DNA of 32,967 nt from Ophryocystis elektroscirrha (taxonomy: Eukaryota; Apicomplexa; Conoidasida; Neogregarinorida; Ophryocystidae). The stretch is taken from NCBI GenBank assembly GCA_030141585.1, contig JAQIFP010000008.1, forward strand, positions 174,822 through 207,788, in the 5' to 3' direction. Positions 9,778 to 32,967 of the stretch are shown in pieces; the stretch's first letter is position 1; the number at the start of each line of letters is the position of its first letter. A program made the position numbers and the translations under genes. Under the pieces are notes generated by a model. That model was not told where the DNA came from. It searched no databases and saw only the letters and a program-made list of their open reading frames with translations.

Positions 9778-10029
9778 CTTAATAATTTTTTAATTGAATA
9801 TATCAAAACTAAAAGTAAAATACATATATTTATTTATATAATTAACAATCAATTTAGCTGAATAAAGAATGCATTGCATAAATTATAAAACTAAGGTTTA
9901 GTAATCTGCTGCGCCTGTAAAAAATAATTACTAATTTATTTTTAATAGCATTATACAAAGTTTACACAGAGAAACATAAATTGATATATAATTAACATTT
10001 GTCACTTTGTATAACGCTGGATTATCAAT
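9778..10029. promoter_or_regulatory. Spacer between kinase and BRR2 genes
   Basis: The two genes run head to tail with about 250 bases between stop and start. This must contain the kinase 3' end and the BRR2 promoter and leader. No recognised motif was found; the call rests only on position. Confidence 0.35.
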
Positions 10030-13000
10030 ATGGCAGAAAAGTTTGAAGCTTTTAGACGATTTGACTATCGTTTAAACTCTAATTTGGTAATTCAGAAAGA
10101 AACCCATAATATTAACCAAAATGAGCCAACGGGAGAGCCTGAATCTTTGGTTGGAAGAACGTTATATCCAATGGGAGATAAAGTGGTCCGAATGAAACCA
10201 AAAGACCTTTTAGAGTTAAATAAGAAGCGTGTACAGCAAACAGCAGTAAAGTTAGGTAAAAGTAACCCAGTTGTATCAGAAGAAACAAAATCTGTGTCTT
10301 CTAAAGTCTTACATGACAATAAATTAGCACATGAATTTCGCAGAGCGATTAAAAAAGGCCCTAATATATTAAGAACAGATATTCACGAATCTAATTATTA
10401 TCACCCCACCACCAAAGAAAATACATATATATATGAATCTATATTGGATGAAATTAAGCTAATAATTGGAGATCAACCAAATGATGTATTATTAGATGCT
10501 ACTGAAGAAATATTATATATATGTAAATCTGAAATTAGAGATTTGGAAAAAAAATCTATGGTGATTAATTTATTAGGTGACTCGTGCACAAATGAAAAAT
10601 TTCAAAAAATTTATAATCTTGTTCATAATTTGAACGACTACGTACCCAAAAATGCCTTATCAGATTTGGCAACTGCTACTAATGTTCCTTTAGACGATGA
10701 TTTAGATAATACAGGTGGTGTAGCTGTGATTTTTGACGAAGATGATGATAATGAACTCATAGACTATGACATAAACAATAAAATAATAGACGACACGAAT
10801 AATAATGACACTTTTTATGAAGAAGAAGAGGAAGAAGACGAGGAAGATAAATTAAATTCGGCAAATGACAAAAATGTGTATATTTCCATAAAAGATGATC
10901 AAAGAGAAAAGTCGGCAGATATTTTGTTTGATAATAAATATAATTTAAATGTTCGAGATATTGATACCCATTGGTTACAACGCGAATTAACTAGAATATA
11001 TAATGACGTAGAGGTTGCTGCAGACTTAGAAAAAAAAATATTGAACGTACTAACCACAGAAAATTTACAAGAGTGTGAAAATAAGCTTGTTTATCTTTTA
11101 AAATATGATAATTTTAATTTTGCAAAATTATTACTAAAAAATCAATGGAAGGTTTATTTTTGTACAAAGCTAGGTCAAGCTCAATCTTCCGTGGAGCGAG
11201 ACAATATTTTAAAGAAAATGAGTGAGTCTCCGTATGGACAAGAAGTCCTTAAAGAATTGGAAGCAGTAAAATTACGTACAGATCGTGAAAAGGAGTTTAC
11301 ACGGAATGTACAGAGAGAAGCTGCCATTTTAGCGGAAAGATCAATGAATTTGTCCAATAAAGAAGATGAAGATGACATTTTAGGAGATAGGACAGTGATA
11401 GATCCATTTGCTAAAAAAAATGTTATTGTCAATGTACAGGCGTCCGAAAAACCTCCTCCAAAAGTTTTAGAGGAGAAAGACAAAGGGGAGCCAGAGATAC
11501 TCAATTTAGAAGCCATGACGTTTACGGAAGGATGCCGATTTATGGCAAATACATCTGTAAAGTTGGGTGAGTCATGTGAACGTATAGAATTGAAAGAATA
11601 CGATGAAGTTATTATACCCCCTCCTATAGTGAAAGAAACAGCTAATGAATATGACCCTGAATTTAATAAAGAGTTACTAGTAGAGGAATGTCTTCCAAAA
11701 TGGGCACAAGATGCATTTACTTGTGTAAATATAAAGCGTTTGAATAAAATACAATCAGCTGTATTCCATATAGCATATTCCGCTCCTAGCAAAAACATGC
11801 TTATTTGTGCACCCACCGGAGCAGGAAAGACCAATATTGCCGTTCTTAGTATTTTATCCATTATAAACCAAAATATATTAAACACAAGTAACAAGCAAAC
11901 TTTACCAGAAAATTTATCAACGGATATTGTTGATACTCCTATGGCAGATAACCCCACGGATTTCTTGAGTTTGAATGAAATATCTTTATTAAAAAAAAAC
12001 ATCAAAGTTGTATATTTATCACCCATGAAAGCTCTAGTAAATGAGCAAGTATTAACCTTAAGTAAAAGATTTAGTCCATACGGTCTAATAGTTGAAGAAT
12101 TAACAGGAGACTCTCATTTGACTCGAAGTCAATTAAGAGAGGCCAACATTATTATTGCTACACCCGAAAAATGGGATATTATTACGCGTAAAACTGGCGA
12201 AATAAATGAAGTTATAAGTTTGATTATATTTGATGAAATCCATTTATTACATGACACTCGTGGAAGTATAATAGAATGTATAGTAGCTCGTACATTACGG
12301 TATATAGAGTCTAGCCAGCAACCAATACGCTTAATAGGGTTAAGTGCAACTTTGCCTAATTATATGGATATCGCTTTATTTCTAAGAGTCTCTTTGACGC
12401 CAAATGATGGTCTCTTTGTATTTGGATCTCTTTATCGACCAGTACCTTTAAAGCAAACATTTATAGGTTTGAAAGAAAAGAAACCAACCAAGAGATTACT
12501 AACCACGCATAATATATTATATAATAAAGTTATCGAAGAATTAAAAAATAACAATTCAATTTTAATATTTGTACACTCCCGGAAAGAAACAGCAAAAACC
12601 GGGAATATACTGAAAAAGATGTTTTTAGAAAAAGAAACGGTCAATTTATTAATTAAGGAAGAAAATATTGCTTCAAATGAAATCCTCAAAACAGAATCAG
12701 AGGCATGTAAGAATACAGACTTGAAAGAACTTCTTCTATATGGTATAGGAATACATCATGCAGGATTACCAAGAACCGATAGACGTCTCATAGAAGATTT
12801 ATTTAGTGATAAACATGTATCGATCTTAATATCAACAGCAACCTTAGCATGGGGTGTTAATTTACCAGCACATACTGTTATTATCAAAGGGACTCAAATA
12901 TATAATCCCGCTCATGGAGCATGGGAGGAATTATCTATGCTCGATATGATGCAAATGATTGGTAGAGCTGGAAGGCCTCAATTTGACTTAACAGGACATG

Positions 13001-14417
13001 GTATAGTTATAACAACACATAATCAATTGCAATATTATTTAAGTTTACTTAATCAACAATTGCCCATAGAATCTCAGTTATTGCATAATTTACCAGATAT
13101 TCTTAACTCTGAAATACAGCTCGGAACAATAGCCACACGTGCAGATGCTGTCAAATGGATACAGTATACGTATTTCTATATTCGAATATTAAGAGAACCT
13201 TCTTTATATGGATTACCAGAAGATGTTCGTAAAAATGATTCTGCATTAATTATACCACTAACAAATATAGTGCATACAGCATTATGTACGTTAGAGAAAT
13301 ATTCTTTGATCCGTTACGAAAGAAGACTAGGTATGATACAACGCATTGGACTAGGAAGAATAGCATCGTACTATTATATCAAATATCCGTCAATATGCAC
13401 ATATAATGAACATCTTAGACCCACCTTTACAGATATAGAGTTATTAAGACTATTTAGTTTGTCACATGAGTTCAAATATATACCAGTAAGAGATGAAGAA
13501 AAAGCCGAAATCACACGTTTACTTGAAAGAGTACCAATACCAGTCAAAGGTTCGGCATCTACGCAAAACTCTAGCGTTAAAATCAATATATTGCTGCAAG
13601 CGTATATATCTCGGTTATCATTAGTGGGTTTTGCGCTTAATGCAGATATGATATATGTAACCCAAAATGCCTCCCGAATTATGCGCGCCCTATTTGAAAT
13701 CTCTTTGAAACGCTCATGGGCATTTTTGGCCAAAAGGACCTTGCTGTTTTGTAAAATGATACATTTCCGTATGTGGAATGTTTTGTCCCCTTTAAGGCAA
13801 TTCAGTAACGTACTCACAGAAGATGTCCTCAAAAAACTAGAAAAAAAAAACTTCCCCTGGGAAAGGTATTATCATTTAAATCCCGTAGAATTAGGCGAAC
13901 TGATACGCGCACCCAAATTAGGTAATGTAATACATCGTCTCGTTCATACATTACCAAAAATGGATATAAGTGCATCTATTCAGCCTCTTACGCCATCTAC
14001 GTTACTTATTGAGTGTACATTAACTCCGGACTTTAAATGGGATTCAAAGTATCATGATATTCATGGTGAAGCTTTTTGGATCATTTTAGAAGATAACGAT
14101 CAAGACGTCATTTTACACTATGAAATGATACGCGTATATCAAAATTTAGCTGAAATTACCATTGATTTTGCCGTACCTCTCACGGAACCTCTTCCTCCAA
14201 ACTATTTTCTACGTTGTATTTCCGACAAGTAATTTTCATTTACCATTTATTTCATTATAATATTTAATTATATTATTCAATAATACTAATATTTAATAAT
14301 GATATTACTAATAATATTTAATAATAATATTTATTAATTATTAATTAATTAATAATATTTAATAATAATAAAATTTAATAATAATAATAATAATAATAAT
14401 ATTTAATAATAATATTA

Positions 14418-14453
<36 letters not shown>

Positions 14454-17453
14454 TAATAGTGTAATATTAAGTATAAGTGACTTTATAAGTATATAAACAG
14501 ATAGATTTGCATCTATATTCAAATGTATATGTATATTTAATTTGTATAAAATTAGATTTTTATTTATTATTTTGGTGCAGATGGATTCAATCTGAATCTT
14601 TGCTAGCTATCTCGTTCAAAAATTTGATACTTCCACAGAAAAATCCTCAGTGTACGGAATTATTGGATTTGCAGCCCGTGCCAATATATAATCTTAAATA
14701 TCCAGAAGCTGAAAAAATGTATAATGCGGAAAGAATAACTCATTTCGGGCCAGTAGAGTCACAAGTCATACCATCGTTATATCATTCAAACGACAATGTG
14801 CTTGTTTGTGCGCCAACAAACGCTTATGGATTGAAAATATGCGCAGAATTCGCTATTCTTCGAATGCTTAAAGAGAGCAGTGTAAAACGCTGTGTATATT
14901 TGACTCCATATGAAAGTTGGGCAGAAAACCGGTATAATTACTGGAAATCTCAATTCGGCGAATTCTTCCCGGATGTTAAAGTTGTTATGTTGACTGGCGA
15001 TACATCAGTAGATTTAATACTAATAAATGAAGCCAATATAATAGTATCCATTGCAACACATTGGGACTGTGTTTCACGCAGATGGAGAACCCGCAAAGTC
15101 CTTCAACAAATACCACTATTTATAGTAGACAATTTGGAAGCATTGAATAGTAGAACCGGTTCTATTTTAGAAGTATGCTTTAGCCGTATGAGATACATTT
15201 CCGCACAACTCCCGAATCCTATCCGTTTTATTGGATTATCTATACCACTTGCAAATGCTATTGATATAGCTGGCTGGTTTGCTGTAGATCACATGAATAT
15301 GTTTAATTTCCCAAGCTCAAGGGGTTATTTAAAGACATATATTGAAGCATACGAAATATACAGTCGTAGTGTAAGATTGGCATCAATGGCTCAACCTACA
15401 TATCAATGGATCAAGAAAACTCCAGAGTACAGTGTTATATTAATTTGCTCAGATCGCAAGCAGTGCCGAATAATGGCAGTCAACTTTTTATTATACAGCT
15501 CATCAGATAATAAACCTTACCAATTCTTACATTTAGACAAAGAAAAAATAGTAGAGGAAATGCAAAAATATCAAATCACAGATAAAACGCTACAACGTAC
15601 ATTACAGTATGGAGTTGGATATATACATGAAGGATTAAATCCAGATATTAAAAACTTTATACTTGAATTATATAAAAAGAAATATATACAAGTATTAATT
15701 ATTATGGAATCCCTTATATGGAGTTTACAAATAACAGCTCAATTAGTTATAGTACAAGATACTATTAAATATCATATGAATACGAAAAGATGGAAAACTT
15801 ACGACTTAGTGGATATTTTTCGTATGATGAGTTTAGCAGATGATAATAAATCAACATCCTCTATGTTTGTATTAATGTGTCCTCAAAGTAGATGGACGTA
15901 CTACAGTAAATTCATATCAGAGCCTATACCGCTTGAATCTGCTTTAGATCAAGGTTTAACTGATTTCTTAAACGCTGAAATTGCTTTAAAAACTATCGAA
16001 TCTAAACAAGATGCAGTAGACTGGCTAACATGGTCATTTTATTACCGCAGATTAACGAAAAATCCTAATTACTATGGATTACAAGGATCAACGCCAACGC
16101 ATCTTTCCGAACATTTGTCCGAATTAATAGAAAACTCCGTCGACGCTTTAACTACAGGTCAATGTATAGAAGTAGATCCAGAAAATCAAATCAATTTAAC
16201 TCCTCTCAATTTAAGCTTAATAGCAGCTTTCTATTATATAAACTTTACAACGATTGATCTTTATAATCGATCCGTCGGAAAAGATCTTAAAAAAAAAGCT
16301 CTAATAGAAATCTTATGTGCGGCTTCTGAGTTCACAGATCTTGTTCCTTTCAGATTTGGAGAAGAAGATATTCTTAAAACAATGGCGAATGAAACAGGAG
16401 TCTATTTAGGTCCAGAAACAGACGTTAACGATCCCAATGTTAAAGCCTTAATTCTTTATCACTCCCATATACACAGATCAAGATTTACTAGTGATCTTGC
16501 TTGGGATAGAAAGTTATTATTAGATGTCTATGTACGCTTACTTCATGCGTTAGTTGATGTTATTGGAAGTAATGGATGGTTCCTTACAGCTATACATGCT
16601 ATGGAATTATGTCAAATGACTATACAAGCCATGAGAACTGAACTTTCCCCTTTATATCAATTACCTTTTTTTGACGAAAAAAGAGTCTCTTTAGCAAAAT
16701 CCTCCAATATAAATGACGTTTACGATTTAATAAATGCAGATGACGATATACGTAATCTAGTACTGTCTGATTTAAGCAATAATCAAATCCAAATGATTGC
16801 TACCATGTGTAATGCATACCCAGTTATAAATGTTGACTTTGATATTCCTGCTGCTATTCAAGAAAAAATTAGCGATGACTCTATTATATACGCTCTGGAT
16901 TGTAACTCCTCTGGAACCCTTGTCATTCAGCTGTCTAGAGTTGTTGTAAGTATAACTCTAATAAATATAGACTATAAATCTATCTCATTATCATGAGAAA
17001 CATTAATATTATTTTAAACTAATTAAACATTATATATAATATATATATATATATAATAAATAATATAATAAATATATATTTATTATATATATTTATTAAT
17101 AAATAATAATTAATTATTATTATTATTATACTTTATAATTATTGCTTATTAGGATAATGAAGAAGAAGAAATAAGTCCAGTAATGACTCAATATTACAGT
17201 AAACCTAAAGACGAACAATGGTGGGTTGTCCTAGGGTCACCTAAAACTAATAACTTATTAGCAATAAAAAGGACAGTAGCAAAGTAAGTTTACAATAATC
17301 ATTTCATTTATTAATAATAGAGTTAAAAATCAAGTTAAATTGACTTTCGATACACCGAAAGAACCTGGATTATATGAATACGTTTTAAATGTTATATGCG
17401 ATAGTTACATTGGATGCGATCAAGAGTATAGTTTAAAAATAAGAACACAGTAA
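10030..17453 (+). CDS. BRR2: Brr2 (U5 snRNP 200-kDa) spliceosomal RNA helicase, four exons
   Basis: Ski2-like helicase that unwinds U4/U6 snRNA during spliceosome activation in the nucleus. Exons 10030-14228, 14581-16945, 17153-17283 and 17321-17453 join in frame to 2,275 residues (human about 2,136). The N-terminal PLUG/PWI part keeps the family lines YRLNSNLVIQ, EPTGEPESLVGR and RDIDTHWLQREL, around an acidic run near 10815-10845. Cassette 1 is intact: Walker A CAPTGAGKT (about 11807), DEIH (about 12233), SATLPN, TATLAWGVNLPAH, QMIGRAGRP, then a Sec63 unit. Cassette 2 starts in exon 2 and retains the fold (LLDLQPVPI, QDAVDWLTWSFYYRR, LNLSLIAAFYYIN). Its ATPase motifs are lost: Walker A reads CAPTNAYGLK and the DExH box reads VDNLEAL. 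The last two exons encode the Sec63/IgG-like C-terminus (WWVVLGSPK, GCDQEYSLKI). Introns are 352, 207 and 37 nt. The identification is very secure. Confidence 0.95.
14229..14580 (+). repeat. (TAA)n-rich intron 1 of BRR2
   Basis: The donor is GTAATT after ISD plus two bases of the next codon. The acceptor TTTGGTGCAG ends at 14580, and the joined sequence reads ISDKWIQSESL, matching the family. The intron is a mosaic of TAA and TAATAT repeats, the longest around 14375-14455. Confidence 0.85.
16946..17152 (+). repeat. AT-repeat intron 2 of BRR2
   Basis: It begins GTAAGT after QLSRVV and ends TTATTAG before DNEEEEISP. The middle (about 17030-17130) is TA/TAAT repeat. In frame, the join gives the expected Sec63-domain sequence. 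The following intron, 17284-17320, is only 37 nt. Confidence 0.85.
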
Positions 17454-17481: not shown

Positions 17482-18780
17482 TCACGATTGTTCATAAACG
17501 TAAAATTTATGAAGAAATGGGTCCAAGTTTTCTATATCAATAATTTTTGAGAATCGTTGATATATCATTTGATCAGTGAGTTGATATTTGGATTTTATAG
17601 ACTGATATTCTTCCGAAGTTTTCATAAGAGATTTATCTGCGGGTGGTAGTTGGTTGAAAGTTGTATCTGATGATTTAAGGAATTTCAGTATATGATGAAC
17701 AGTTTTTTTAGTTGATTTTTTGAGGTTATCATAAGAAATATCAATAAATCGATTAGAAAATTGTGGATTAGCTGTTCTAAATTGAAACATTTTACTTAGA
17801 ATAATCTGTAGGTAGTTGATTTCGGAATCAATTAATTGTTGTATATTTTGTGTTTGAATACGATTTGCTTCCCTTACAGAATGTACTAAATGTATCCAAC
17901 TAGAGACAGCTTGTGGCAAATTTCTATGTAAGCAAATGACTTTAGCTGTAGGGAATGTTTTGAATATTTCATCTAAAGCCAATGCGTGCAACGGGCTTTT
18001 TAATACCCATCGTTGATTACTTAACCATGGTTTTTGAATTTGTAAATGTTGAAGATATTTCTTATATTTTGAGTACGTTTTTTTGTATTCAGCATAGTCA
18101 TTATCTGAAATCCATTTTAAGTAATTGGGACAATTGAATATTGTATGTAAATTGGGAGTACGTCCATATTGAGCAAACAGCATATAATCCTCTTCAGACC
18201 CATCCGGAGAATGATGATGTATTTTTTTCCAGTCAGGGAAAAGGAAATTTTCTACTTGAAACAATAAATCGAGTTCTTGTATTCTAGGATCTACCTGACT
18301 TTCACTAAAGTCAGAAGATTTCCCATCTAGACCATACGGTATAAGTAGTTCATATAATTTGACTGTACGGAAGTTTTTATGTAAGCCAAGAATATTTTGC
18401 AAGTAAGTAGTTCCCGTTCTATGTAAACCAATGATAAAAACAGGATCTACAATTTTCTGATTTTCATATAAACTAGGACATATTGATTCGTGATAATTAA
18501 GAGCAATATTATTAACGTATGCTTGATAAACAATTTGAGATAATATCCAATCTTTTTGGAAAGTTTCATCTGAATTTTTTGATAAAGATTCTTTACATAA
18601 AATATCAAATGATTCATCAATAAAGCTTAAGTCAAATTGTTCATATGGTAATACCGTGTATGCTTTTCTTTTGAGTTCTTGAATATTACGGTTTATCAAA
18701 TAAGCTTTACCGCTTACAGATTTCATTAAAGGTTGAACAGACAGTGGTGATAAAATTGAAGATATATATTTACTTAAATC
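17482..18780 (-). other. PKS C-terminal sulfotransferase domain (Sulfotransfer_3 type)
   Basis: It transfers sulfonate from PAPS to an alcohol. Seen: the 5'-phosphosulfate loop VFIIGLHRTGTT (18406-18435 and flank) after the family's typical helical lead-in (QFDLSFIDESFDILCKES); WVLKSPLHALALDEIF; and the 3'-phosphate motif AKVICLHRNLPQAVSS with Arg and Ser in place. A final helical region ends at the stop with YVYEQS. The closest resemblance I recognise is to bacterial-type Sulfotransfer_3 proteins rather than cytosolic SULTs. It is fused directly after the reductase in the same exon, so sulfonation of the released alcohol is the simplest reading. Confidence 0.85.
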
Positions 18781-21700
18781 TATTTGAAATTTGTCCTCAG
18801 GGAACTCCTTTTGTAAATGGGAAGAATCAACAATAATATTTGATTTATTAACTTTCATAGCACTGGGTCTATATACATATTTATAATGTGTCATATATAA
18901 TAATGCTGGTAAATGATTGATATCGGGATTTTCATTAATAAGATCAAATATTGAAGAATAATCTTTACAATTAATATGATTGGACATATATTTGATATTC
19001 TTCCACAGTAGAGGTAAGTCATCATTTGGAGATATAATGTGATACGTAGTATGTTGCAGTTTCTTTTTTAATATAATTTTAGTAATAAATTTGACGGCTT
19101 GATCAGTAGGAGTAATTATATATTTTATATTTGATAAATCTAAACGTATATTTTTTTGGAAACATTTCATTAGGAAACTATACAATACATCTTGAGAGGT
19201 TAAAGGTCTTGCATTAGTAGAAATAAGTAAATGACCTAATCTTAATATAACAACTGGTAATAAATGTTTTGTTGCTAGACATATATTTTCTGTAACCCAT
19301 TTTACCCATGGATAACCAAAGAAATTAGGTGTACCAAAAGAGAGCATTTCGTCTATGGAAGGTAAATCCGTCTCATATATATTTTGCTTGATATTATTGG
19401 AAAATTCAAATGATGTAAAATAATTGAAAAATATACCAATTGATGATATATGATAATAATATTTTAGACGATGATTTAAGCATAATTTAATTAATTCAGT
19501 TGTACCCAATATATGTGATGATCGTAATGTTTTATAACTACTGCACATATCTACGGTACCTCCTGAATTTAAAACACAATCAGCGTTTTCACTCAAAAAT
19601 TTATAATCTTCATAGGATGCACCCAAATTAATTTTTTCAATGTCCCCTGGTATAATTTTGATCTTTTCATATACACTGGTTGGTAAATCTAATAAATTAT
19701 TTTCAGAAAGTGTTAATATTATTCTTTCGAACCCGTCTTTGGGAGTTGAACATCGAATCAAACAAAATATGTTTAAATTTAAATTTAATAAGTTGTGCAA
19801 AACATGTATTCCCAAATAACCCGTGGATCCTATCAATAGAATATTTTTGATTTCATCAGGAAGTTGGTTATTTATTCTTTTATTATTTTTTTCATAATGG
19901 AGAATTTTAGATATAGATGATTCTACATCATATTCAGGTGAAACACTTTTGGGTGTATATTTAAGTAAAATATTGACATATTTATCAAATTCTTTTTTAT
20001 TATTTGCAGTATCTATGATAGATTTCAAATAATAATTAGATTGAGCTTTACTATTTTCAACAGATGAAGAAAATTGACATAATTCTTTCATTTGAGTTTT
20101 AGTTTCTTCGTATATTTTACTCCATTTATAAAGATTAGAGTAAATATCGGTGCATATATTATTTAAATGATCAAATTTGACAATTTCTTTGATTAATTTA
20201 TCAGATATTAGCTGATAGTGATCTGCTTCTTTGTAATTAGTTACAATATTGTAAATAGAATTTGTAGTTTCAACCGGCTGTTCAAATAACTGAGTACTAG
20301 ACACAAATATGAATTTATTTTTATTTGCATTATTTAATCCTTTAATGAAAACATCTAATAATTGTTTGGTTAGTTGATAATTGGTATCAGCATTGAAACT
20401 TCGCGTGAAATTGGACTGGAATTGCTGAGATAAACTAGAAAGAAAAGATAAACACATATTTTGTCTTTCTTCTGTATCTGGAATAACGTAAATAATTTTA
20501 GCATTAGGGTATATTTGTTGTATTGCAGGTAAAGAGGAAAGATGATATAATGAGTTTAATATTAACTGTGAATTTTTTTTGATAGGTAAACATGGGTAAT
20601 GGAATTTCAAATAATATTCTTGTAGCTGTTGAATTTGATATGATGCAACATGTTCTATATATTTATTGGAACCAAATTTAGATGCTAAACTTAAGCAAAT
20701 ACCTCCAGTTTCCAGTAATAAAGTATCTTCCCATATATCATCTATTGTGGTTGGGAAGAAATTTTGATATAATTCTCCAACAGTATTTTTCACAAATGCT
20801 AATGTATGATTAAGGAAATCTTCGGAGCTGATTTGGAGATTTTTTCTTTGATAATTTGACATCATATCTTGAAATGTTGTAGAATGGCAATTTGGAATGG
20901 TGCTTAATAAATTTTGCAAGCATAAATTAGCTATTCGGTCTATACCCGTGATAATAATAGGAGCGAAGTCACTGCAAGCAGCTTGGACCTCAGCTACCGT
21001 AGCATATTTAATATTAGTATATAAAGAGTTCGATGCTAAAGTATGAATAAATAAATGACCAGACCGTGTATATGGAATATCGCATAAAGTATTAAAGTCA
21101 TTTTTACATTTTTGTATGGCATTTTGAACTGGTTCAGTTTTAAAAATGGCTTCCTCTTGTTTGTTCAATACATAATTCTTTTTATATGCCGTACAGACAG
21201 ACTCAAATTGAAATGGATTTATAAATCTAATATAGTGATTTAACTTGGATTCTGGAGCAACTTGTTTTTCTGTTTGTAACCTTTTCAAAAATACACTAAT
21301 TGAAGAACTATTTAATTTAACTGTATGCGGTAACTCTAAAAACCTTGTACAATTACTTTGAAAAAAATCTTCTCTTGTCTAAAATAATATATGACACATC
21401 TAAAATTATTACTTTTATAAAATAAAGTAGAGCAGATTTTTGCATAGAATTTGTTGGTAATTCAAGTCTTTTTATTAATTGATTTAAATTTAATACTGGA
21501 TATTCCAATCCAAAATATGTTGATAGTAAACAAGAAAATTCATGTCTAAAAAAAAAAAATTAATTATCAAATATATTATTAATATCAATTTTTAATATAT
21601 ATATATTATATATATATGTATTTATATTATTAATTTATATTATTAAATTATCAAATATATATATATATATATTTGATAATAATTATTATTCTTATAATTA

Positions 21701-24700
21701 TTTATATATTATGTATTTATATAAATTTTTTTTTTATATTAAGAGATAAAACTTACGCTTTAATACAATTAGAACTCATAATATTAAAATCATAAGAATG
21801 ACTTGTTTGAGTATGACTATTAATAATATTAAGAATAGCTTGAGACACTTCTTGTTCATCTACAAATTCTAAGAACCATAAATCTGGTATATAATCAACT
21901 TGAGAGCTAAACATAGAAATGATTTCATTTTTAAAATGTGGGAATCTGATTAGTGTGTACTTTAAATTAGGATACATCAGATATATATCATATATCATAC
22001 GCTCTAATAATAGAGAATTATTTGGCATATATTCTTCTAATTCAGAGAGTGATGTTAAAGAGTTTATAGACGACAAAGTTGTCCTTCCTCCTGTCATATA
22101 CCATGGTGTATATTCTAAATCGGTAATTAAATATAACGATAATGATTGTTTTTGTTGATCATTTTGTAATATGGTTAATAAAATAGCAGATATTAATTCA
22201 AATGTAGGTATAAAGGTTTTAGAGATCATCTTTTGTATATTATCTGTAAAACTAATAATTAATTTTCGTATATTATATATCCATTGATATATGGTATGGT
22301 CCAATTCATAGTCATATATGTATATAATGATTTTAGAGTTTAAACTGTCTGTCATAGTTTTCTCATAATTGGCAGTACCATACATTATTGCATATATAAT
22401 ATTTAATATTTGAAGTACAGATTCAGTTGTATTTAATAATACTAATACAAGTTTTTCATTTTCTTTCAGCTGATTTATGAATTGTTTTAAACTAAAAGGA
22501 TAATTCGAAATATATTGTTTAGTGGATATATATGTAATGTATGATACTTTTGTTTCTATTGGTATACCATATGGTATTTTATTTTGTGCAGCACTTATTA
22601 AAGCTTTTGTATTTATATTAAAGGAGTTTTCATAATTTGCAAAGTTTATCATTGAGACTATTTGTGAATTGTATTTCCATGGGTATTTTTGGGTTACCAA
22701 ATATTTATTTGTTAAACAGTTAATTAAACCATCGTGATATACAGCGGGAGATATTGTAAGTGCTGCATTTACTCCTCCTATTCCAAATGTCTGCATATAT
22801 AATTCCGACGAAGAAGTTATTGTAAATGTATCATTTTCTGTGGGAGCTATAAAATTAGAGCTAAACATATTTAAATGTTCATTCCATTTCTCAAAACCCA
22901 TTAATTTTGGTATTACTTTATATAATCCCATTAATATGATTTTTAATAATTGTGCGGCTCCTAATGCTGCATTATTATGTCCTACCGATGGATGTACACT
23001 TCCTATATATATATCGGATTTTTCTCTGATAGATTTATTCCATGCAGCATCTAGAGCGGATAATTCTATTGCATCTGCAATTGGTATTCCTATACCTTGT
23101 GTCTCTATATATGATATATTTTTATTTAATAGTTTTTGTGCTAATTGACGTTGTGCTTTACGCGAAAATCCCGTTAACATTGTAGAGTTGCCGTTATGAG
23201 TAACACTTGAATTATTTAAATAGCATAAAGCATTTGAGGGTTTATTATCTTGCAAATATGACTGTAATATAAACATTGCTCCTCCTTCTCCTAGTAAAGT
23301 ACCAGAGGCTTTTTTATCAAATGGATATATGCATCTACTATTCGACAAATATCCTATTTTAGATAAAGCTATGTTTGTGTAAGGCGTTAGTAATAACGAT
23401 ATACCTCCAACAAGAGCGGTATTTATTGTTCCACTAAATAGAGCATTCATTGCAGTATTGATTGCTACTGTAAATGAACTACAGCCAGTATCAAGTGTCA
23501 TTGATGGTCCTATCAAGTTGAATATATATGATATACGATTCGATAACATACATGTTGATATATTAACATGTTTATTATTTATTATATCGCTATTTATTGT
23601 ATTATTCAATGCTAATATTGACGGCCATTCCAAATGATTCGTAAAACCTATGTAAACTCCTGTATCGGGTGATAATTGATCGATATTCTTCATTGCCATA
23701 TTACTTAGCTCAATTGCTAATCTATGATGTGGATCAATTACTTCTATTGGTTCTTGAGTATATATACTGGAATCAAAGGAATCTACGTTTTCTAGTAATG
23801 CTGCATACTGGGAATTTATTACAAATCTACTCTTCGGTATTATATTAAATACGTTTTTGCAATTGATTATGGACTCCCAAAACTCCTGTAAACTATCGGA
23901 TTGAGGGAATCTACATGCAGCGGAAGTTACTGCTACAAAATAATCGTTTTTTGTTAATTCTGAAGTTTTTATATTGAAAATATCGCTTTCACGGGTATAA
24001 GGGTCTGAATTGACGCTTTCTCCACATAAAATGTTCAAAATAGCATTCAATAAATCTTCAAAGGTTTTTAAGTCTAAAAATATCACAGTTGATATATGTA
24101 TATCAAATTCCAAGTTCAGTTTTTCCCTGTACTCCATAAGTGCTAAAGAATCAAATAAATCCTGATAATCCGATATACGACTGCTTGGTGTTATTTTGTC
24201 TATACTTAGTTTTCCTTCTTCCGTTGCTACTATTTCCTTTAATAGGGATTTCATTTTTTCCCATATGCCTTCTTTTTCTTTTTCCGTAAAGCCCATTTTA
24301 GGTGTTTGAGGTCCATATTCGCTGACAACACCGGACTTTTCCAAAGAGGAACTATCCCATGGGAATGATTCATGATTCCATTTATAAGAATAGTAGCCTA
24401 ATTGATCCTCGTGTATGTTAATCAATGTTTTGCTAATGTTACATAAATCATTGATATTATTGCTCAATATATCAATTGAAGACATATTTTTGGCAGTAAA
24501 ATCTACGTACTGTACTGGTGATTTGTCGGATACTATACTTTTTATTAATTTCAATAATATAGTCGAAGGCCCTACTTCTATATATACATTTCCATTTAAA
24601 GATTCACGTATATACTTTATTGCTGTATAAAATTGGACGGGATTGATTACTTGATTCCTCCAATAATCTGGAGTCTGTAGTTGATCGAAAGTCTCCTTTG

Positions 24701-27700
24701 TACCCGTCACTGTAGATACAAAAGTTATATCTGTATATTTGGAAAAAGAACTTCCCATCGTTGGATTAAATATTGTATATATATAATCTGCTAATGGTTT
24801 TACATATACTGAATGATATCCGTAACTAACATCTAATATTTTTGATGTTACTTTTTGAGATAAATCTTGAATATCTTGTTTACTTCCAGATAAAGTATAA
24901 TTGAATTCTCCATTTTGTGCTGCTATATGTACATTAGGGTATTTTTCCAGTAAATTATTTAAATCTGCAGAATCTATGCGACATGCCAACATTGCACTTT
25001 TATCACAAAGTTTTTCTACATATATACACCTATTATATAACATATATATGGCAGTTTCCAAACTGATGGCTCCCACTGCTACAGCGGCGGTATACTCTCC
25101 TAAAGAATGCCCAATGACTATATCTGGCTTCACATTATTGCTTATTATCAAAGCATATAAAGCATACTCCAAGAAAAATATAGCTAGCTGCATAAATTTA
25201 TCATCAGGTTGTGTGAATATATGTAGTAAATCAATATCAGGAATATACTTTTTACATTCTAATATACAGTAGTCAATATTTTTTTTAAATATATTATTAT
25301 TATTATACAAATATATACCCATGTCTTTATATTGCGAACCTTGCCCAGTAAATAATATTACTAATTTATGATCTATATTATATGTATTTTGGATTTCGGA
25401 TTCTTTTGAAGGAAGTGATTCCAATATTATATGTGTATTTGTTCCTCCAAAACCAAAAGAACTTACTCCCGCTTTTAATACTCCTCTATCATCCAGAAAA
25501 GTCTCTTTTTTTAAAGGAATTTTAAAATCGTAAGGATGGAAATTGATAGAAGGATTAAATTTCTCAAAGTGCAGATTTCTTGGTATTACTCTTTGTTGAA
25601 GAACTAGACATGTTTTGATTACTCCTGCTATACCCGCTGCTCCTTCTAAATGTCCTATATTTGTTTTTAAAGCGCCTAAATATAAAACATTGTTTAGTAA
25701 TAAACGATTTGGGACACCATATATCGCTTTCAATGCAGCTGCTTCAATAGGGTCTCCTAAAGGTGTTCCAGTTCCATGACATTCTATGTAGTTTACGGAC
25801 TCTGGTAAACATTTAGCTTTTATTAGAGCATTCTTTATTACTTCTTCTTGACTTTTTCCATTAGGTGCCGTTAAACTAGCACTTTGTCCATCGTGGTTTA
25901 CTGCAGATCCTTTACAAATCGCAATTATTCTGCGTATATTTCCACCCGATTCTTCTTCATTTGACCCCTCTTTTGCTCGACTTAATAGATTTTGAGCTTG
26001 TTTAAGCTTCATGAGGACTATAGAACCGGCTCCTTCTCCTCTTGTATAACCATCCGCTTTATGATCGAATGTTTTGCATCTACCTGTTGGAGATAACATT
26101 CGTGTACGACAAAACACTATAAATGCATGTGGAGCCAATATTAAATTAATTCCTCCAACTAACATTGCACTTATGGTATTATCTATTAGAAACTTTTCAT
26201 ATGCTGCGTCCAATGCTACTAAGGAAGAAGAACAAGCCGTATCAATTGTTAAAGAAGGACCACGAAGTCCCAAACAGTAACTTATACGATTAGCTATTAG
26301 AGACATTGCTATACCTGTTGAAGAATATGAACTTTCATATTGTTCGGGTGCGTCTAACATATGCCAATCAAAATTACAGCAACCTATATATACACCTATT
26401 TGTTTTCCACGTAAATTTGCTTTACTATATCCAGCATCTATTAGAGCATTCATTGATACTTCTAATATTTTTCTTTGTTGGGGATCCATTGACATTACTT
26501 CTGGTGTAGATATATTGAAGAACTTTCGATCAAACATATATACGTTATTTATTAGACCTGCTTCTCTAACATAACATCTACGTAACATTGCTGGATTAGG
26601 ATCAAATATCTTTACTATATTTAGTCTTTCTGTGGGTATTTCTATTATACAGTCTTTTCCGTCTATTAAATTATTCCAAAATGCCTCTATATTGTTGCTA
26701 TTTTGAGGGAAATCACATGAGGCTCCTACTACTGCGAGATTCGTATCATAATCACTCAAAACGCTGTTTGTATTTGCGATGCTTATATCCCGTTTAGGTA
26801 ATACAGATATTTTATTTTTAACGGAATTTCCTGTCGACTTTACAGTTTGTATAACGGTATCTATTATGTAATTTTGTAACATGCCTAAAGTGGGATAATT
26901 AAATAAAGCTGTGGTAGGAAGAACGATACCAATTTGACTGGATAATTCATTTCCAAATTCCACTGCACCTAGGGAATCAATTCCTGAATCTTGTAAGGAA
27001 ATATCCAACGGAATTTCCGTTATATTGGGCTTATTGTTGCCGATAACTTTTTTCGCTGAATTCATGACTACATTTTTAATGTATATCTCGATTTCGGCAT
27101 CTGTCATTTCTTGAAGCTCAAGGAGTTTATTATGTGAAACAATATTGTCCGATACCGAGTTATCTGTGGCAGCTATATCCAATATACTTTCAAACATTTT
27201 TGGGACTTTATTGTTTAAATATCTCTCAAGGAATTTTTTCCACTTTATTTCGATACATCCTATGGTATTTTCGACGTTTTGGACTAATAAATTGTGCAGT
27301 ATATATTGACCCAATTTATGACTAAAACCAGTTATACCGGCATTTTCAAATAATTTGAGTTGTTGCTGCTCAGATATGTTCAATTTATTGCTGCTTACAA
27401 CCATACCGTATTCCGTCCATGGACCCCATTGGATGGATAGTCCACGCTCGTTTTTAGCATTACGTAAATTTATAATTGAGTCTACTGCACTATTTGCTGC
27501 ACTGTAAACTACTTGTCCAACATTTCCTACCATAGCAGCTACAGAGGAAAATACGACAAAATGATCCAAGTCTTTATTTAAGTCAAGTTGTTCTGACAGT
27601 ATATGGAAATTCCACGTACTATAAAACTTTGGACCATACACTTTCGAAATATTGTTTGCTGTAATAGATGCCAAACTACAATCATCTAATACACCCGCAC

Positions 27701-30700
27701 AATGGAAAAAGCCTCCTATTTTTATCGGGAATCGGTAACTTGCTAACACAGTTTTTAATAAATAAGAACATGCAGTTAAATCTGTTGTATCAATTTTATA
27801 TATTAATATATTTTTTTGTGTGGAAAAAGAATTGGTTGACTTATACAAAATTTCTGTTTTATCTTCGGTATTTTGAACCCGTTCAAAGTTATTTCCCGTT
27901 AATAATTCTTGTAACCTTTGTTCATTGATTTTATTGAAGGATCTTGTACATAAAACTATATGCTGTATCATTGGATCACTTAATAAAGTTTCTGCTGTTG
28001 TTATACCTAAGGCTCCTAAACCCCCTGTTATTATATACGTTTTATTGATTTGTATGTCATTTTGCGTCATTTTGGGAGTATATGGATACTTATTGATTAT
28101 TGCTGTTTTTTGAAGTGGAGATGATATAGAAGGCATACGGACAATGACTTTCCCTATATGCTGTGCTTTTAGTAAATGACGGAATGCGGCTTGTATACCT
28201 CCATTCTCTAATACGGTTTCACTCGAATCATCTTTAAAGGGAAATACAGATAATGGAAGACAATTTCTAATGTTAGGATAAGCGTTAGTATACTCTAAAA
28301 ATTCTTCTAACTGTTGCTTGAACCAAATCTCATTTTTCATCGTTAAATCATCTACTGCTAATATATGGTATTTTATATCTCCTCGATAATTCAGCATTTC
28401 TTCTTCCGACCATATTTTTCTTTTTCCTATTTCTATGAAGTATCCATTCTCCGCTAATAAGTCGGCTGAATATTTGATGTACTCATCTGAAAAAGAATTA
28501 ACTACGATGTTTATTTTGTGATTGGTTTTTCCCTCGCTAGCGAGAAATTTTTTCATATCCGCTATAAATATCTCCGGTTTTCGAGAAGACGTGATGTTAT
28601 ATATACCGTAGTTGTCTCTAAGGAATTGGGCCTTGACTTCTGAACCTACGGTGGCGTATATTCGATCTGGAGTAGTCAGCGTTAATGCTAAGGATATGCA
28701 TAACAGTCCTACTCCTCCGGATGCCGCATGAATCAATACACGGTCCAATTTCTTCATATTCGACAATTTCAGCAAACTCATATATGCAGTAACTGCGACG
28801 ACTGGTAAAGCCGCTGCTGCTTCAAATGACATATCCTTTGGGAATTTTGTTACTAAGTCCGCTTTTGTGATTGTAGTAGACTTTAAACACCCTGGTGCTA
28901 ATCCAAATACGTGATCTCCAGGCTTTATATGCTTCACGTCTTCACTTACTCGAAGTACTGTTCCCGCAAAATCAGCTCCTGGAGGCCCTGCTTGTCCCGG
29001 ATATAAACCCATCACATTTAAAACATCCCGGAAATTCAGACCTACTGCAGCGACGCATATTTCAACTAACCCATTCTGGATGTATTTTTGTGCATTTTGG
29101 TTCATTTGGGTCAACTTCAAACTCGACAAAGTATTTTTTTTATCGGAATCAATAGCCATTTGAGATGGATATATACAGTGAATGAGATTTTCTGGTTTTA
29201 TGCGTGGTGCTATTATGGTATCTTCATTTTCAATTTCTATGATAGTTTCTCTTTCTATATTTTGTTGTAATAATAAAGAAAAATGCTTATTCAAAAATAA
29301 ATTGAAATTTGACAATTTTTCCATATTCTCATTTAATAAACAAACAGAATTGTATATTTCCGTTTTATTGATATAATTAATTGGCAACTCTGTATCTATT
29401 GACTTTATTATTCCTAATATACTTTCAGCTAATATTTGTGTTTGTTTATTTACTATATTTATAATCATAAGCCTGCTCAAATGACTAAATATTATTGGTA
29501 TTATATGCTTGTATGAATCTATAGTACATCCTACATACTCATTCAATTTTTCTGTGGTATATTGTGCAGCTGGCATATAGCCCGTTAAATTAAGAACTAT
29601 AGTTGTTTCATGATTATGTAGAGGTAAACTATTTAACTCATTAGGATTTGCTATAAATATGTTTTTATATTTATTATCTGGAATATCCATTATTAAATTG
29701 TCATTATATATTATGATTAATGTGGTATTTACTTTTTGTAAATAAAAGTCTAGTTCATTATAGAAATACGTTCGTATAGGTTCTTCTTGTTCCAGTACTT
29801 CAACATTATTAAGTATTTTCGTAATATTAGAAAGTTTATTAGATTTCTGGTTATTTTCTAACTTTTCCCATTTAGTTTGCCATAATAATAAAGAAGGAAC
29901 GTTTATTTTTTGTGAGGATTGGTATACTTTAAGCTTCAAAGTATTTATTACACATATAGTCTCAAATTTTGAGGACAATAAAAACAACCTCATATTAATA
30001 TTATCATTCGACTTTGTCATGTCTATATCAATATATGAATAATATACATCAAATATTTGTTCAGGTATTTGTATATAGACATCATCCATTTGTATAGGTA
30101 TATAAGATTCATTTACTTTTTGGCTATATAATAGTAAAGCCGCTGTTTGCACTGCACCATCTAATATTCCAGGGGGTAATATAAACGTATTTTCCATAGT
30201 GTTTGTATTTAGCTGTAATTTACCTATGCATGCCATTTTATTCTTTAGAATCCAGGCTTCATTAATTGTACGAAAATTAGGTCCGTAATTATATCCTGCT
30301 TTCAAAAGTTCCAAATATATTTGTGAGCATTCTTGGTTGTTTAGATGTATCGAAGGTGTTTTACTATTCAAAACATTTTGCATTTCTAAGGAATATTCAT
30401 TTGCTGTGTATAGGAGACTATCTAATAAAGACTGATTCAGTACTGTAGTATTTATTTTTGCTGTAGCATGTTTTAAAGATGTATCCAAAATATATATGTT
30501 AGGCTCAATATTTCGATCTGTTACTATGGCGATATCTCCAAAATCGTTGATCAGTAATCGTATATATATATTCTCTATGGATTCATCTAAAATAATAGGT
30601 GAAATTATATGGAATGTATTTATGTATATAATTGATTTATAACCTCTTTTTACTACACATTCTATGGTATTTTTTTCTATGGAGTTTTCCGTTATATTGG

Positions 30701-32967
30701 GCTTAAATTCGTTAATTGTTTGACATATAGAAGGATGATTATATTTATCGTAAATTGACATAGCCGCTATTATATCCAAAAATACAACAGCTGGTACAAG
30801 TACTTTATCTTGTATGCGATGATCTTTCATATATGCCCGTATATCCTCTCGAATGATAGAAGTATACACACGTGTGTCGTCTATTACATGTCTTCGTCCA
30901 ATGAATGAATGCGCTAGACCGCACCAGGGCAAATAATTCTTTTTATCATCAATACTGTTAAAATTATTCAAGTCAATTGGTTGTTTGGGAGCTTGTACTA
31001 TTACATGAGCGTTAGCACCTCCAAATCCAAAGGAGCTTGCGCCACCGTATAATACGCTTGTTCCATCTGCTAGCTCTATGTCATTTATATCGGCGTATCT
31101 TTCATGAGGAATTTCCACAGATAACTCCCCAAAGTCAACATATGTGTTGAGTTTAGAGAAGTTCATTAAAGGAGGTAGTTTACGCATATTTAGAGATAAA
31201 ACAAGCTTCAATAATCCAGATATACCTGCCGCTCCTTCGGAGTGATTTATATTTGTTTTGAGTGCACCCAAGTATAGTGGTCTATTGCGTAATTTTGTCT
31301 CAAATATTGAACGAATGGCTCCCGCTTCAATAGGATCTCCTAATGCAGTTCCCGTACCATGAGTTTCTATACAAGTTATTGCGGAAGGCTGTAAAAATGC
31401 ATTTTTAAGAGCGTTTTTAATACAAGCTGCTTGTAATGGGCCGTTTGGCGCTGTTATAGTGCTGCCTTTACCAACATGATTGATACTTGATCCCACTATA
31501 TACCCAACAACATTTTTTTGATCGCTTATGTAATTTAGTGGCTGTAAAATCATAGCTACTGCTCCTTCTCCGCGACCATAACCATTTGCTGTTACGTCAA
31601 ATGTTTTGCACCTTCCATCTGGAGATAAAAGTCTGGTTTTAGAAAACCCTATAAATAATTGTGGAGATAGCATCAAATTGACTCCACCAACTATAGCGCC
31701 TTCTATGGCGGGATTTAATTTGCATTTCTCATAAGCGGCATCTACAGCTACTAAGGAAGAAGAACATGCTGTATCTATTGTTGCACTAGGACCTTTGAAA
31801 CCATATATATAAGATATCCTATTTGATATCAAACACATGGAACCTCCTGTACAGGAATATGGAGACCCTGAATTAGGATTTGTATTAGCATCTAAATAAT
31901 GCCAGTCAAAGTTGCAGCATCCAATATATACGCTAAAATTGCGGTTTAATATATTCATTTTATCTGTATTGGGTACTGACTCTATAGCAGAATTCACTAC
32001 AGATAATATGCACCTTTGTTGAGGATCCATTAACAGCGTTTCTGGTAAAGATATATTAAACTTATCATAATCGAAATATTCTGCTTTATTAATTGATGCT
32101 CCTTTACGTACGTAAGAACATCCGAGTGTTTGATAATGGGGATCATAAAATGAATCTATATTAAATCTACTAAGTGGAATCTCGCTTATACAATCTTTTT
32201 TATTTATAAGGTTGTCCCAAAGTATGCATGGGTTATATGCATTTCCCGGTAACCAGCAACTCATTCCTACTATACCCAGCTTTATGTTATTCTCTACATT
32301 AATACTTCGAATAGACTTTTGTACAGATTCTATGGGATCTTCTTGAGTATTTAATATTTTATCTTGTATGTACTTTGTTATGGACTCTATATCTGGATAA
32401 TCAAATATAGCAGTTGCTGGTAATTTTATTCCTAGCTCGAATTCGAGTCTATTTTGAAGCTCTACAGCTCCCAGTGAATCTATACCCATTCCTACTAATG
32501 ATTCCTTTTCATTAAGTGTTTGATCTACAGTGTGGCCCAAAACTAGACTAATTTCTTCTAAAACTTTATTATGTACATACTCTCCTATTTTTGTTGGTGG
32601 TAAACTCAATATGCTTTTTAATTTTTCTGTTCTTTGCTCGACACGTACATCGTTATCTACTGAATTTATATTATATATGGAAACATTCAGAGTATTGTAT
32701 ATTTGTAACATTGAAGAAGCAGGATTTTCAGCTAAGAAATTTGAGTTTTCTTCTATTTTTTCGTTCAAAACACCGAAACGATTAACAAATTTGCTCCAAT
32801 TCAAAGAGGCTATACTGACAACGGCAGGTAAAGCTACTGTTTGTTCTTGATTTATAGTAGATGTATCATTAATTTGATTCATTATATATTCTTTTAGTAT
32901 TCGAATGTATATATCATTTGTTAGATGCTCGAAACCGGCTTCCTGTATAAGTTTATTGGAGACAGCC
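17482..32967 (-). CDS. Giant modular type I PKS, C-terminal 5,079 residues, with terminal reductase and sulfotransferase (5' end outside window)
   Basis: Exons on the minus strand are 32967-21757, 21545-21413 and 21378-17482. The junctions are donor GTAAGT at 21756 with acceptor after an oligo-T tract at 21547-21546, and a 34-nt intron 21412-21379. The reading is open to the right edge, where it shows the tail of a ketoreductase, so the Met at 32882 is not the true start. Numbering from 32966, the order is: KR tail; ACP (Ser164); KS (226-660, Cys401); DH (690-1010); pseudo-KR; ER (1279-1616); KR (1636-1930); ACP (Ser1998); KS (2074-2516, Cys2245); AT (2529-2863, Ser2621); ACP (Ser2940); KS (3001-3411, Cys3162, His to Gln3290); decayed reductase; decayed sulfotransferase (about 3828-4181); reductase (about 4285-4648); sulfotransferase (about 4674-5068). 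Apicomplexan type I PKS/FAS enzymes are cytosolic chain builders. Reductive release followed by sulfonation is my inference. The product is unknown. Confidence 0.9.
18780..19900 (-). other. PKS terminal thioester reductase domain
   Basis: NAD(P)-dependent SDR-type reductase that releases an ACP-bound acyl chain as aldehyde, or after a second reduction as alcohol. The nucleotide motif NILLIGSTGYLG is followed by IFCLIR. The catalytic set is seen as YYHISSIGIF and FGYPWVKW (Tyr-x3-Lys, about 19297-19325). RLGHLL follows, as in carboxylic-acid and thioester reductases. All key residues are intact, unlike the upstream copy. Cryptosporidium PKS is known to end with a reductase, which fits the lineage inference. 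Confidence 0.85.
20180..23965 (-). other. PKS decayed module: KS with Gln for His, degenerate thioester reductase and degenerate sulfotransferase
   Basis: KS (23965-22735) keeps Cys in LDTGCSSF (23481-23483) and the last His in SVGHNNAALG. The HGTGT motif reads QGIGI (Gln codon 23097-23099). Then comes a Rossmann-like stretch (about 22600-21413, across two exons) whose ITYISTKQYIS aligns with ILLIGSTGYLG of the downstream reductase but lacks the glycines; its YMPNNSLLLERM lacks the Tyr-x3-Lys Lys. The following 350 residues (21240-20180) align with the terminal sulfotransferase: IITGIDRIANLCLQNLL against IIGLHRTGTTYLQNIL, and YPNAKIIYVIPD against FPTAKVICLHRN. The PAPS-binding residues are missing. 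I read this as an inactive duplicate of the terminal unit. Confidence 0.75.
21546..21756 (-). repeat. AT-repeat intron of the PKS gene
   Basis: The donor is GTAAGT at 21756; the acceptor follows a run of T on the minus strand and ends at 21546. The interior is TA repeat with inverted AT-rich halves (ATCAAATATAT and ATATATTTGAT near 21650-21680) that could form a hairpin. Joining across it gives CIKAHEFSCLL in frame. The second intron, 21379-21412, is 34 nt. Confidence 0.85.
23990..26745 (-). other. PKS non-reducing module: KS-AT-ACP
   Basis: KS at 26745-25420 keeps Cys (DTACSSS, 26232-26234) and both His (ECHGTGTPLGDP, NIGHLEGAAG). It carries a short acidic insertion with SNEEESGGN. AT at 25380-24380 has FTGQGSQY, the catalytic Ser in GHSLGEY (25104-25106), and YGYHS at the position of the specificity motif that is usually xAFH for malonyl. 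ACP at about 24290-23990 has DLFDSLALMEY, Ser at 24147-24149, and is divergent from the two upstream ACPs. No KR, DH or ER is present, so the beta-keto group would be kept. Confidence 0.87.
26860..32290 (-). other. PKS fully reducing module without acyltransferase: KS-DH-psiKR-ER-KR-ACP
   Basis: KS at 32290-30990 has active Cys in DTACSSS (31764-31766), His in ETHGTGT and His in NINHSEG. Only about 30 residues separate the KS end (GFGGANAHVIV) from the DH start, so the usual AT is absent. DH (30900-29940) has YMKDHRIQDKVLVP, where the usual Gly of HxxxGxxxxP is Asp, and the second motif LDGAVQ. The structural pseudo-KR lies at about 29900-29160. ER (29130-28120) has LIHAASGGVGLL. KR (28060-27180) has TGGLGALG, the LDD motif in GVLDDCSL (typical of B-type KRs), and catalytic Ser/Tyr in FSSVAA and VYSAANS. 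ACP Ser is at 26973-26975. As built, the module would fully reduce its beta-carbon if an extender is supplied by another AT. Confidence 0.87.
32340..32967 (-). other. PKS upstream module remnant: ketoreductase tail and ACP
   Basis: The first residues in the window (AVSNKLIQEAGFEHLT and later ASLNWSKFVNRFG) line up with the tail of the next module's KR (KLFENAGITGFSHKLG, EIKWKKFLERY), so the window opens inside a ketoreductase. An acyl carrier protein follows at about 32600-32340 with GMGIDSLGAVELQ. Its phosphopantetheine Ser codon is at 32475-32477. Confidence 0.85.

Follow-up and report, generated by a model that had tools for sequence, protein, structure and literature searches.

A polyketide synthase gene of Ophryocystis elektroscirrha with a probable decayed KS-R-ST module ahead of its C-terminal reductase-sulfotransferase pair

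A polyketide synthase (PKS) gene at a contig end of Ophryocystis elektroscirrha was characterized in a preliminary description as closing with two successive reductase-sulfotransferase units, the first of them catalytically dead, which raises the question of what the inner unit is, where it came from and whether it still serves the enzyme. The window analysed here, a stretch of 32,967 nucleotides (contig positions 174822-207788, in a contig of 207788 bases), belongs to an 8.0-Mb assembly of 118 contigs; the gene is on the minus strand and runs off the contig, so that its 5' end is missing. With two predicted introns removed, the 5'-incomplete product has 5079 residues and the domain order ACP-KS1-DH-ER-KR-ACP-KS2-AT-ACP3-KS*-R*-ST*-R-ST, where KS is ketosynthase, ACP carrier domain, R thioester reductase and ST sulfotransferase, and asterisks mark the divergent or decayed inner copies. 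Exon 1 (window positions 21757..32966; all features of the gene are on the minus strand), cut at its 5' end by the contig end, encodes the domains from the first ACP through KS* and the start of R*. Predicted intron 1 (21546..21756; 211 nt, 5.7% GC, GTAAGT...TTTTAG) is followed by exon 2 (21413..21545), which contributes 44 aa inside R*, by predicted intron 2 (21379..21412; 34 nt, GTAATA...TTTTAG) and by exon 3 (17482..21378), which encodes a linker and ST*-R-ST. Exon 3 is a stop-free open frame of 1298 codons (1298 aa), and its codon-position base composition resembles that of the remainder of the gene.

The last pair carries the motifs of both of its halves, and motif reading of exon 3 bears out the preliminary description, which had listed GSTGYLG, Tyr-x3-Lys and HRTGTT as retained. 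The reductase (18862..19869) matches NAD_binding_4 at 6.5e-39 and contains GSTGYLG and GYPWVKW, so that both its profile match and its two motifs are those of a thioester reductase; MxaA and other thioester reductases are its relatives with solved structures. The sulfotransferase (17557..18453) contains GLHRTGTT, LKSPLH and LHRN, with a Sulfotransfer_3 match of 3.7e-38 for the whole of exon 3. Of 44 positions that are near-invariant in 33 ordinary ST rows it retains 31, G/T/T, K, H/R and S/W among them, and the residues expected of a PAPS sulfotransferase (GLHRTGTT, LHRN and SSW) are all present. Its solved relatives, 2zq5 and 2z6v, were both deposited as putative uncharacterized proteins. Upstream, the last carrier domain of the gene, ACP3 (24072..24269), retains the serine of its FDSL motif and is presumably the carrier that R unloads.

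These features suggest a type I polyketide (or fatty acyl) synthase whose chain would leave ACP3 through the C-terminal R-ST. Using NAD(P)H, the reductase would turn the thioester into a primary alcohol, which the sulfotransferase would then sulfate with PAPS, yielding an alkyl or polyketide sulfate. As judged from its motifs, the seemingly intact last pair probably releases the product as a sulfated alcohol. An APS kinase is encoded in the genome (1.4e-44), a finding that is only permissive for such a release. The metabolites of apicomplexan PKS and FAS genes have been hard to identify, as a 2020 review likewise has it; a motif-bearing R-ST end and an APS kinase in one genome lead to a concrete predicted chemistry, that of a terminal alcohol sulfate.

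The inner sulfotransferase, ST* (20155..20961), is by its sequence a sulfotransferase domain, well beyond chance in four methods. In a six-frame search of this one genome, Pfam Sulfotransfer_3 (PF13469) matched it with 31 bits against a cut-off of 27 (E 7e-7, profile positions 72-208 of 216). In a local set of 78 sequences, blastp related it to FAS-type ST domains at ~2e-11, and a profile built from 17 ordinary R-ST proteins detected it at 8e-14. With hhalign it reached 96.8% (E 2.3e-10) and a score of 78, compared with a maximum of 25.5 in 60 shuffles, and glocal alignment gave z 13.5 against 60 shuffles. The Pfam comparison that had been proposed for the upstream sulfotransferase thus recognizes it, and the alignments between the upstream and downstream sulfotransferases quoted in the preliminary description proved to be real.

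Its binding residues are another matter. In sulfotransferases, PAPS-binding roles are assigned to the phosphosulfate loop and to Arg/Ser residues. ST* keeps 18 of the 44 near-invariant positions (against the same 33 ordinary ST rows), and has lost, among others, the phosphosulfate-loop GTT, the Lys, HR and Ser-Trp: GIDRIANL stands for GLNRSGTT of the synthase on contig C42, IPD for HRD, S is changed to M and W to C, and K is lost. Neither the 5'-phosphosulfate loop nor the 3'-phosphate Arg/Ser of an active PAPS sulfotransferase is found among its residues, and in the ST alignment the upstream domain does lack the PAPS residues, as had been claimed.

Lesions are also seen in the ketosynthase that precedes the inner unit, KS* (22761..23984). 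It retains TGCSSF and GHNNA, and hence the Cys and the second His, but the first His is replaced by Gln (ETQGIG), as noted earlier, and the KTN Lys is lost as well, so that it lacks the Cys-His-His triad of an elongating ketosynthase. At the same site, four other KSs of the genome read ETHGTG, ECHGTG, EAHGTG and ESHGTG. Seven KS matches were found in the genome, three in the PKS gene and four on contig C42; KS* scores 150.7 bits with the KS profile, compared with 214.5-282.7 for the six others, and its branch is by far the longest in the KS tree. Profile searches found no AT or ACP match after KS*.

Between these two recognizable domains lies R* (21756..22601), a stretch without sequence support where a reductase would be expected. 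The gap from KS* to ST* is ~520 residues, while R start and ST start are 465 and 462 residues apart in two intact tails, leaving room for an R plus linker. No Pfam match to NAD_binding_4 was found in exon 1 or ahead of ST*. With hhalign, R* scored 12.8 against the reductase profile, below the shuffle mean of 14.8, and hmmsearch --max, glocal alignment (z -0.25) and ST-anchored alignment with reductase profiles were at shuffle level. In global alignments to the R profile, Besnoitia R, C42 R and U2 R, the best of 12 settings, with a single sequence, left 4 of 100 shuffles as good, and for the C-terminal piece of R* 24 of 200 shuffles matched a reductase equally well. A by-eye match of the C-terminal half of R* to a reductase looked convincing, but shuffle controls do not bear it out. 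We also considered and rejected a decayed AT, KR, DH, ER or KS, none of whose profiles it matched; for all of them glocal z lay between -1.4 and 1.5. The statement that the upstream pair aligns with the downstream one along its length therefore fails for the R* half, which in hhalign, HMMER, glocal, ST-anchored and global comparisons scores no better than its own shuffles.

Structure prediction adds a rough outline. Without an alignment, the AF2 model of R* had pLDDT 33, useless as a fold; guided by an R alignment, which biases the result, it was still poor (pLDDT 58.8, pTM 0.56) and roughly of SDR type. The two models place beta-alpha elements at the same positions, with 65% three-state agreement at the true register and no more than 52% once the offset exceeds 3. 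The first three solved matches of the R-guided model were R domains of thioester reductases, tied with other SDRs (Z within 1), and Foldseek returned epimerases first and several R domains lower, with query TM mostly 0.3-0.4. In alignment A2, R* keeps 7 of 58 near-invariant R positions, and the loop glycines, Tyr and Lys are all absent. We infer, tentatively, that R* is a former reductase. Of the two successive reductase-sulfotransferase units first proposed, the last pair and ST* thus stand, but an upstream reductase lacks sequence support; likewise, the glycine motif and Tyr-x3-Lys are missing upstream in the R-guided alignment, as had been stated, but from a stretch whose identity as a reductase has no sequence support.

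Taken together, we think it rather probable that a decayed KS*-R*-ST* module lies between ACP3 and a working C-terminal R-ST release pair of a type I synthase. The module would be a decayed terminal one, still folding but performing no chemistry. With its first His lost and no AT or ACP of its own, KS* presumably cannot extend a chain; R* would be inert with the cofactor loop and Tyr-x3-Lys missing, and ST* with the PAPS site missing. The dead block may act as an in-frame spacer or scaffold, perhaps providing KS-type dimer contacts and a footing for the last R-ST. A scaffold role is possible, and the block may, much as the preliminary description proposed, be kept as structure only.

The R-ST tail is not peculiar to this gene. 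Among 8000 scored candidates, it occurred in proteins of Eimeria, Cyclospora, Cardiosporidium, Vitrella and Gregarina and in bacterial proteins of ~830 aa. Like the PKS gene, the apicomplexan and chromerid type I FASs of these five genera, giant synthases or fragments of them, end in R then ST, ~460 residues apart, but they showed a single pair, to which the PKS gene adds a PAPS-less ST and an R-sized stretch in front. A paper on SwfB (PMC3908369) already describes the tail, in SwfB and in coccidian FASs, so that both the R-ST unit and the chemistry proposed for it have been published. Alkyl or polyketide sulfates, it notes, would go undetected by ordinary saponification-methylation. SwfB of sponge-symbiont bacteria resembles the PKS gene in having a fused R-ST beside a KS-AT-DH-ER-KR-ACP synthase (same source), but it is a separate protein of ~830 aa with a single pair. 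The bacterial R-ST proteins agree with SwfB in length, R-ST order and synthase neighbour: among the best 80 of 116 bacterial loci, 77 had one R and one ST match, 2 had two ST and 1 had ST only, and a KS was found within the flank at 60 of these 80. In Cryptosporidium, PMC2995488 describes the FAS1 reductase, CpFAS1-R, as ~780 aa long with a motif-less C-terminal half unique to apicomplexans. That half occupies the ST position, as in R-ST tails, but here R is active and single and the ST likeness is weak.

None of 38 proteins with R-ST tails showed a second stretch of R or ST; among them, two Cryptosporidium proteins and P0056 have marginal or no ST signal. The absence of a doubled tail outside the PKS gene is weakly tested, since the protein searches spanned ~714-2270, 512-1628 and 2055-6540 aa, leaving out very long PKSs, 8000 candidates were scored, and the relatives considered are the best 120 of 2215 matches. 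A protein search with exon 3 returned two R-containing proteins and no ortholog, but, depending as it does on 5-residue words in common, it would overlook orthologs that have diverged; against viral_contigs, exon 3 gave 10 matching stretches, none of them a relative. Among the openly accessible journal papers listed in literature searches, in one case 15 of 24, none was by title or abstract start on a doubled or dead R-ST tail. The earlier statement that no PKS with this layout has been described thus holds for the doubled tail within the reach of these searches, but R-ST tails as such have been published, and an ACP-KS-R order occurs in a Besnoitia gene model.

That model bears on the origin of the inner block. 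In Besnoitia besnoiti P0079 (residues 5313-6404; gene model only), ACP, KS and R follow one another with neither AT nor ACP separating KS from R, an uncommon terminal order that matches ACP3-KS*-R*. KS*-R*-ST* may therefore represent a terminal KS-R-ST of long standing and not a copy made from the outer pair. A possible account, though less likely than not, is that a coccidian-type PKS at first ended in the inner block as its KS-R-ST, that the outer R-ST was gained later, from the FAS paralog or elsewhere, and that the inner block then decayed. Consistent with this, a KS tree that holds KS* to the Besnoitia KS had a likelihood 1.3 above the free search (p-AU 0.552), and in both KSs a His replaces the KTN Lys. 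However, the Besnoitia R keeps its motifs, the gene model has no second pair and ends 131 residues later without ST likeness, and the account relies on this one gene model only. Besnoitia KS5 was tried as an ortholog of KS* and is suggestive by order only, as the two share one exclusive residue, whereas KS* shares up to 6 with several other KSs.

Slightly more doubtful, though possible, is the tandem duplication put forward in the preliminary description, in which copying of the R-ST pair, or of KS-R-ST, within the gene would have been followed by decay of the inner unit. Two ST domains of the same kind do occur in one gene, the inner one after an R-sized stretch, and the other synthase of the genome has just one pair. 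However, ST* matches the FAS-type ST of the C42 synthase with 54 bits and the downstream ST with 32 bits (E 0.014), and the downstream ST ranks 17th of its 40 matches in the set of 78 sequences. The ST tree does not join ST* and the last ST, though both are on very long branches; constraining them as sisters lowered lnL by 2.3 (p-AU 0.168), so that sisterhood is neither favoured nor rejected. In addition, the downstream unit has no counterpart of KS*, and R* shows no detectable likeness to the downstream R (70 to 91 of 100 shuffles were equally good). With ST* closer to the C42 FAS-type ST and the two copies apart in the tree, duplication of one release unit is less likely than not.

Whatever its origin, the inner ST* has parallels elsewhere. 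ST domains with lost PAPS positions appear to recur, as judged from alignments, in Vitrella P0019 and, weakly, in two Cryptosporidium FAS tails. In Vitrella P0019 the ST is well recognizable; the GTT loop, Lys and Ser-Trp are lost and His-Arg is kept. At the ST position of the two Cryptosporidium FAS tails, z ranged from 1.5 to 4.7 over four settings, hhalign alone was within the shuffle range, and Pfam ST scores were 14.9 and 12.4 bits, short of the cut-off of 27. Together with the dead inner copy, these recurrent losses offer a natural test of whether reductive release depends on the ST fold; they also hint at the identity of the C-terminal half, devoid of motifs, of the Cryptosporidium FAS1 reductase. 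It is conceivable, though we hold it to be doubtful, that the ST fold outlives its chemistry for a structural reason, with the inert KS-R-ST as a scaffold or gate here and repeated uncoupling in Cryptosporidium FAS1 and the Vitrella synthase. We consider it unlikely that the dead block has acquired a new, non-catalytic job in binding or gating, such as holding the chain or a partner enzyme in position ahead of release. Such a job would fit the long open frame, which retains the fold-defining pattern in an AT-rich genome, the retention of the domain in other lineages that lost the PAPS positions, and the activity of CpFAS1-R, with the ST position included, as an MBP fusion (PMC2995488), but decay alone explains the losses.

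That there are two genes rather than one protein, an upstream one ending in R* and an ST*-R-ST frame that is a separate gene or a decaying remnant, is very improbable: the exon 1 frame stops at 21753, the exon 3 frame opens only at 21378 and both introns are predicted only, the second just 34 nt, but the splice signals and reading phase fit, intron 1 has its 5.7% GC, and the first Met of exon 3 is residue 172 while ST* starts earlier, at residue 138, so that a separate gene started by ATG would lose the start of ST* and a join to the upstream exons is favoured.

The single gene favoured here shares the genome with a second synthase on contig C42 (C42:137730-167267), where adjacent open frames carry AMP-binding matches upstream of four KS. 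The C42 synthase ends in ACP-R-ST, with one intact pair, and its tail shares ~51% identity with Eimeria and Cyclospora tails and 52% with a eukaryotic transcript. In module 1 of the PKS gene (window 24269-32966), DH directly follows KS1 and an AT match is absent. At least four AT matches were found in the genome, all within the two synthases (the counts are lower bounds), so the extender units of KS1 may come from the module 2 AT or from the other synthase.

Within the window, the PKS gene converges on a splicing helicase of Brr2/SNRNP200 type, which spans two or more open frames (10015-16996, plus strand). A rhodanese-like domain (4910-5407, plus strand) and a weak RIO/Kdo-type kinase match (6245-7963, plus strand) were also detected. 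FAS likeness points to an apicomplexan-like alveolate, as do 9 ApiAP2 domain matches, 5 of them over the cut-off, and 11 alveolin matches across the genome.
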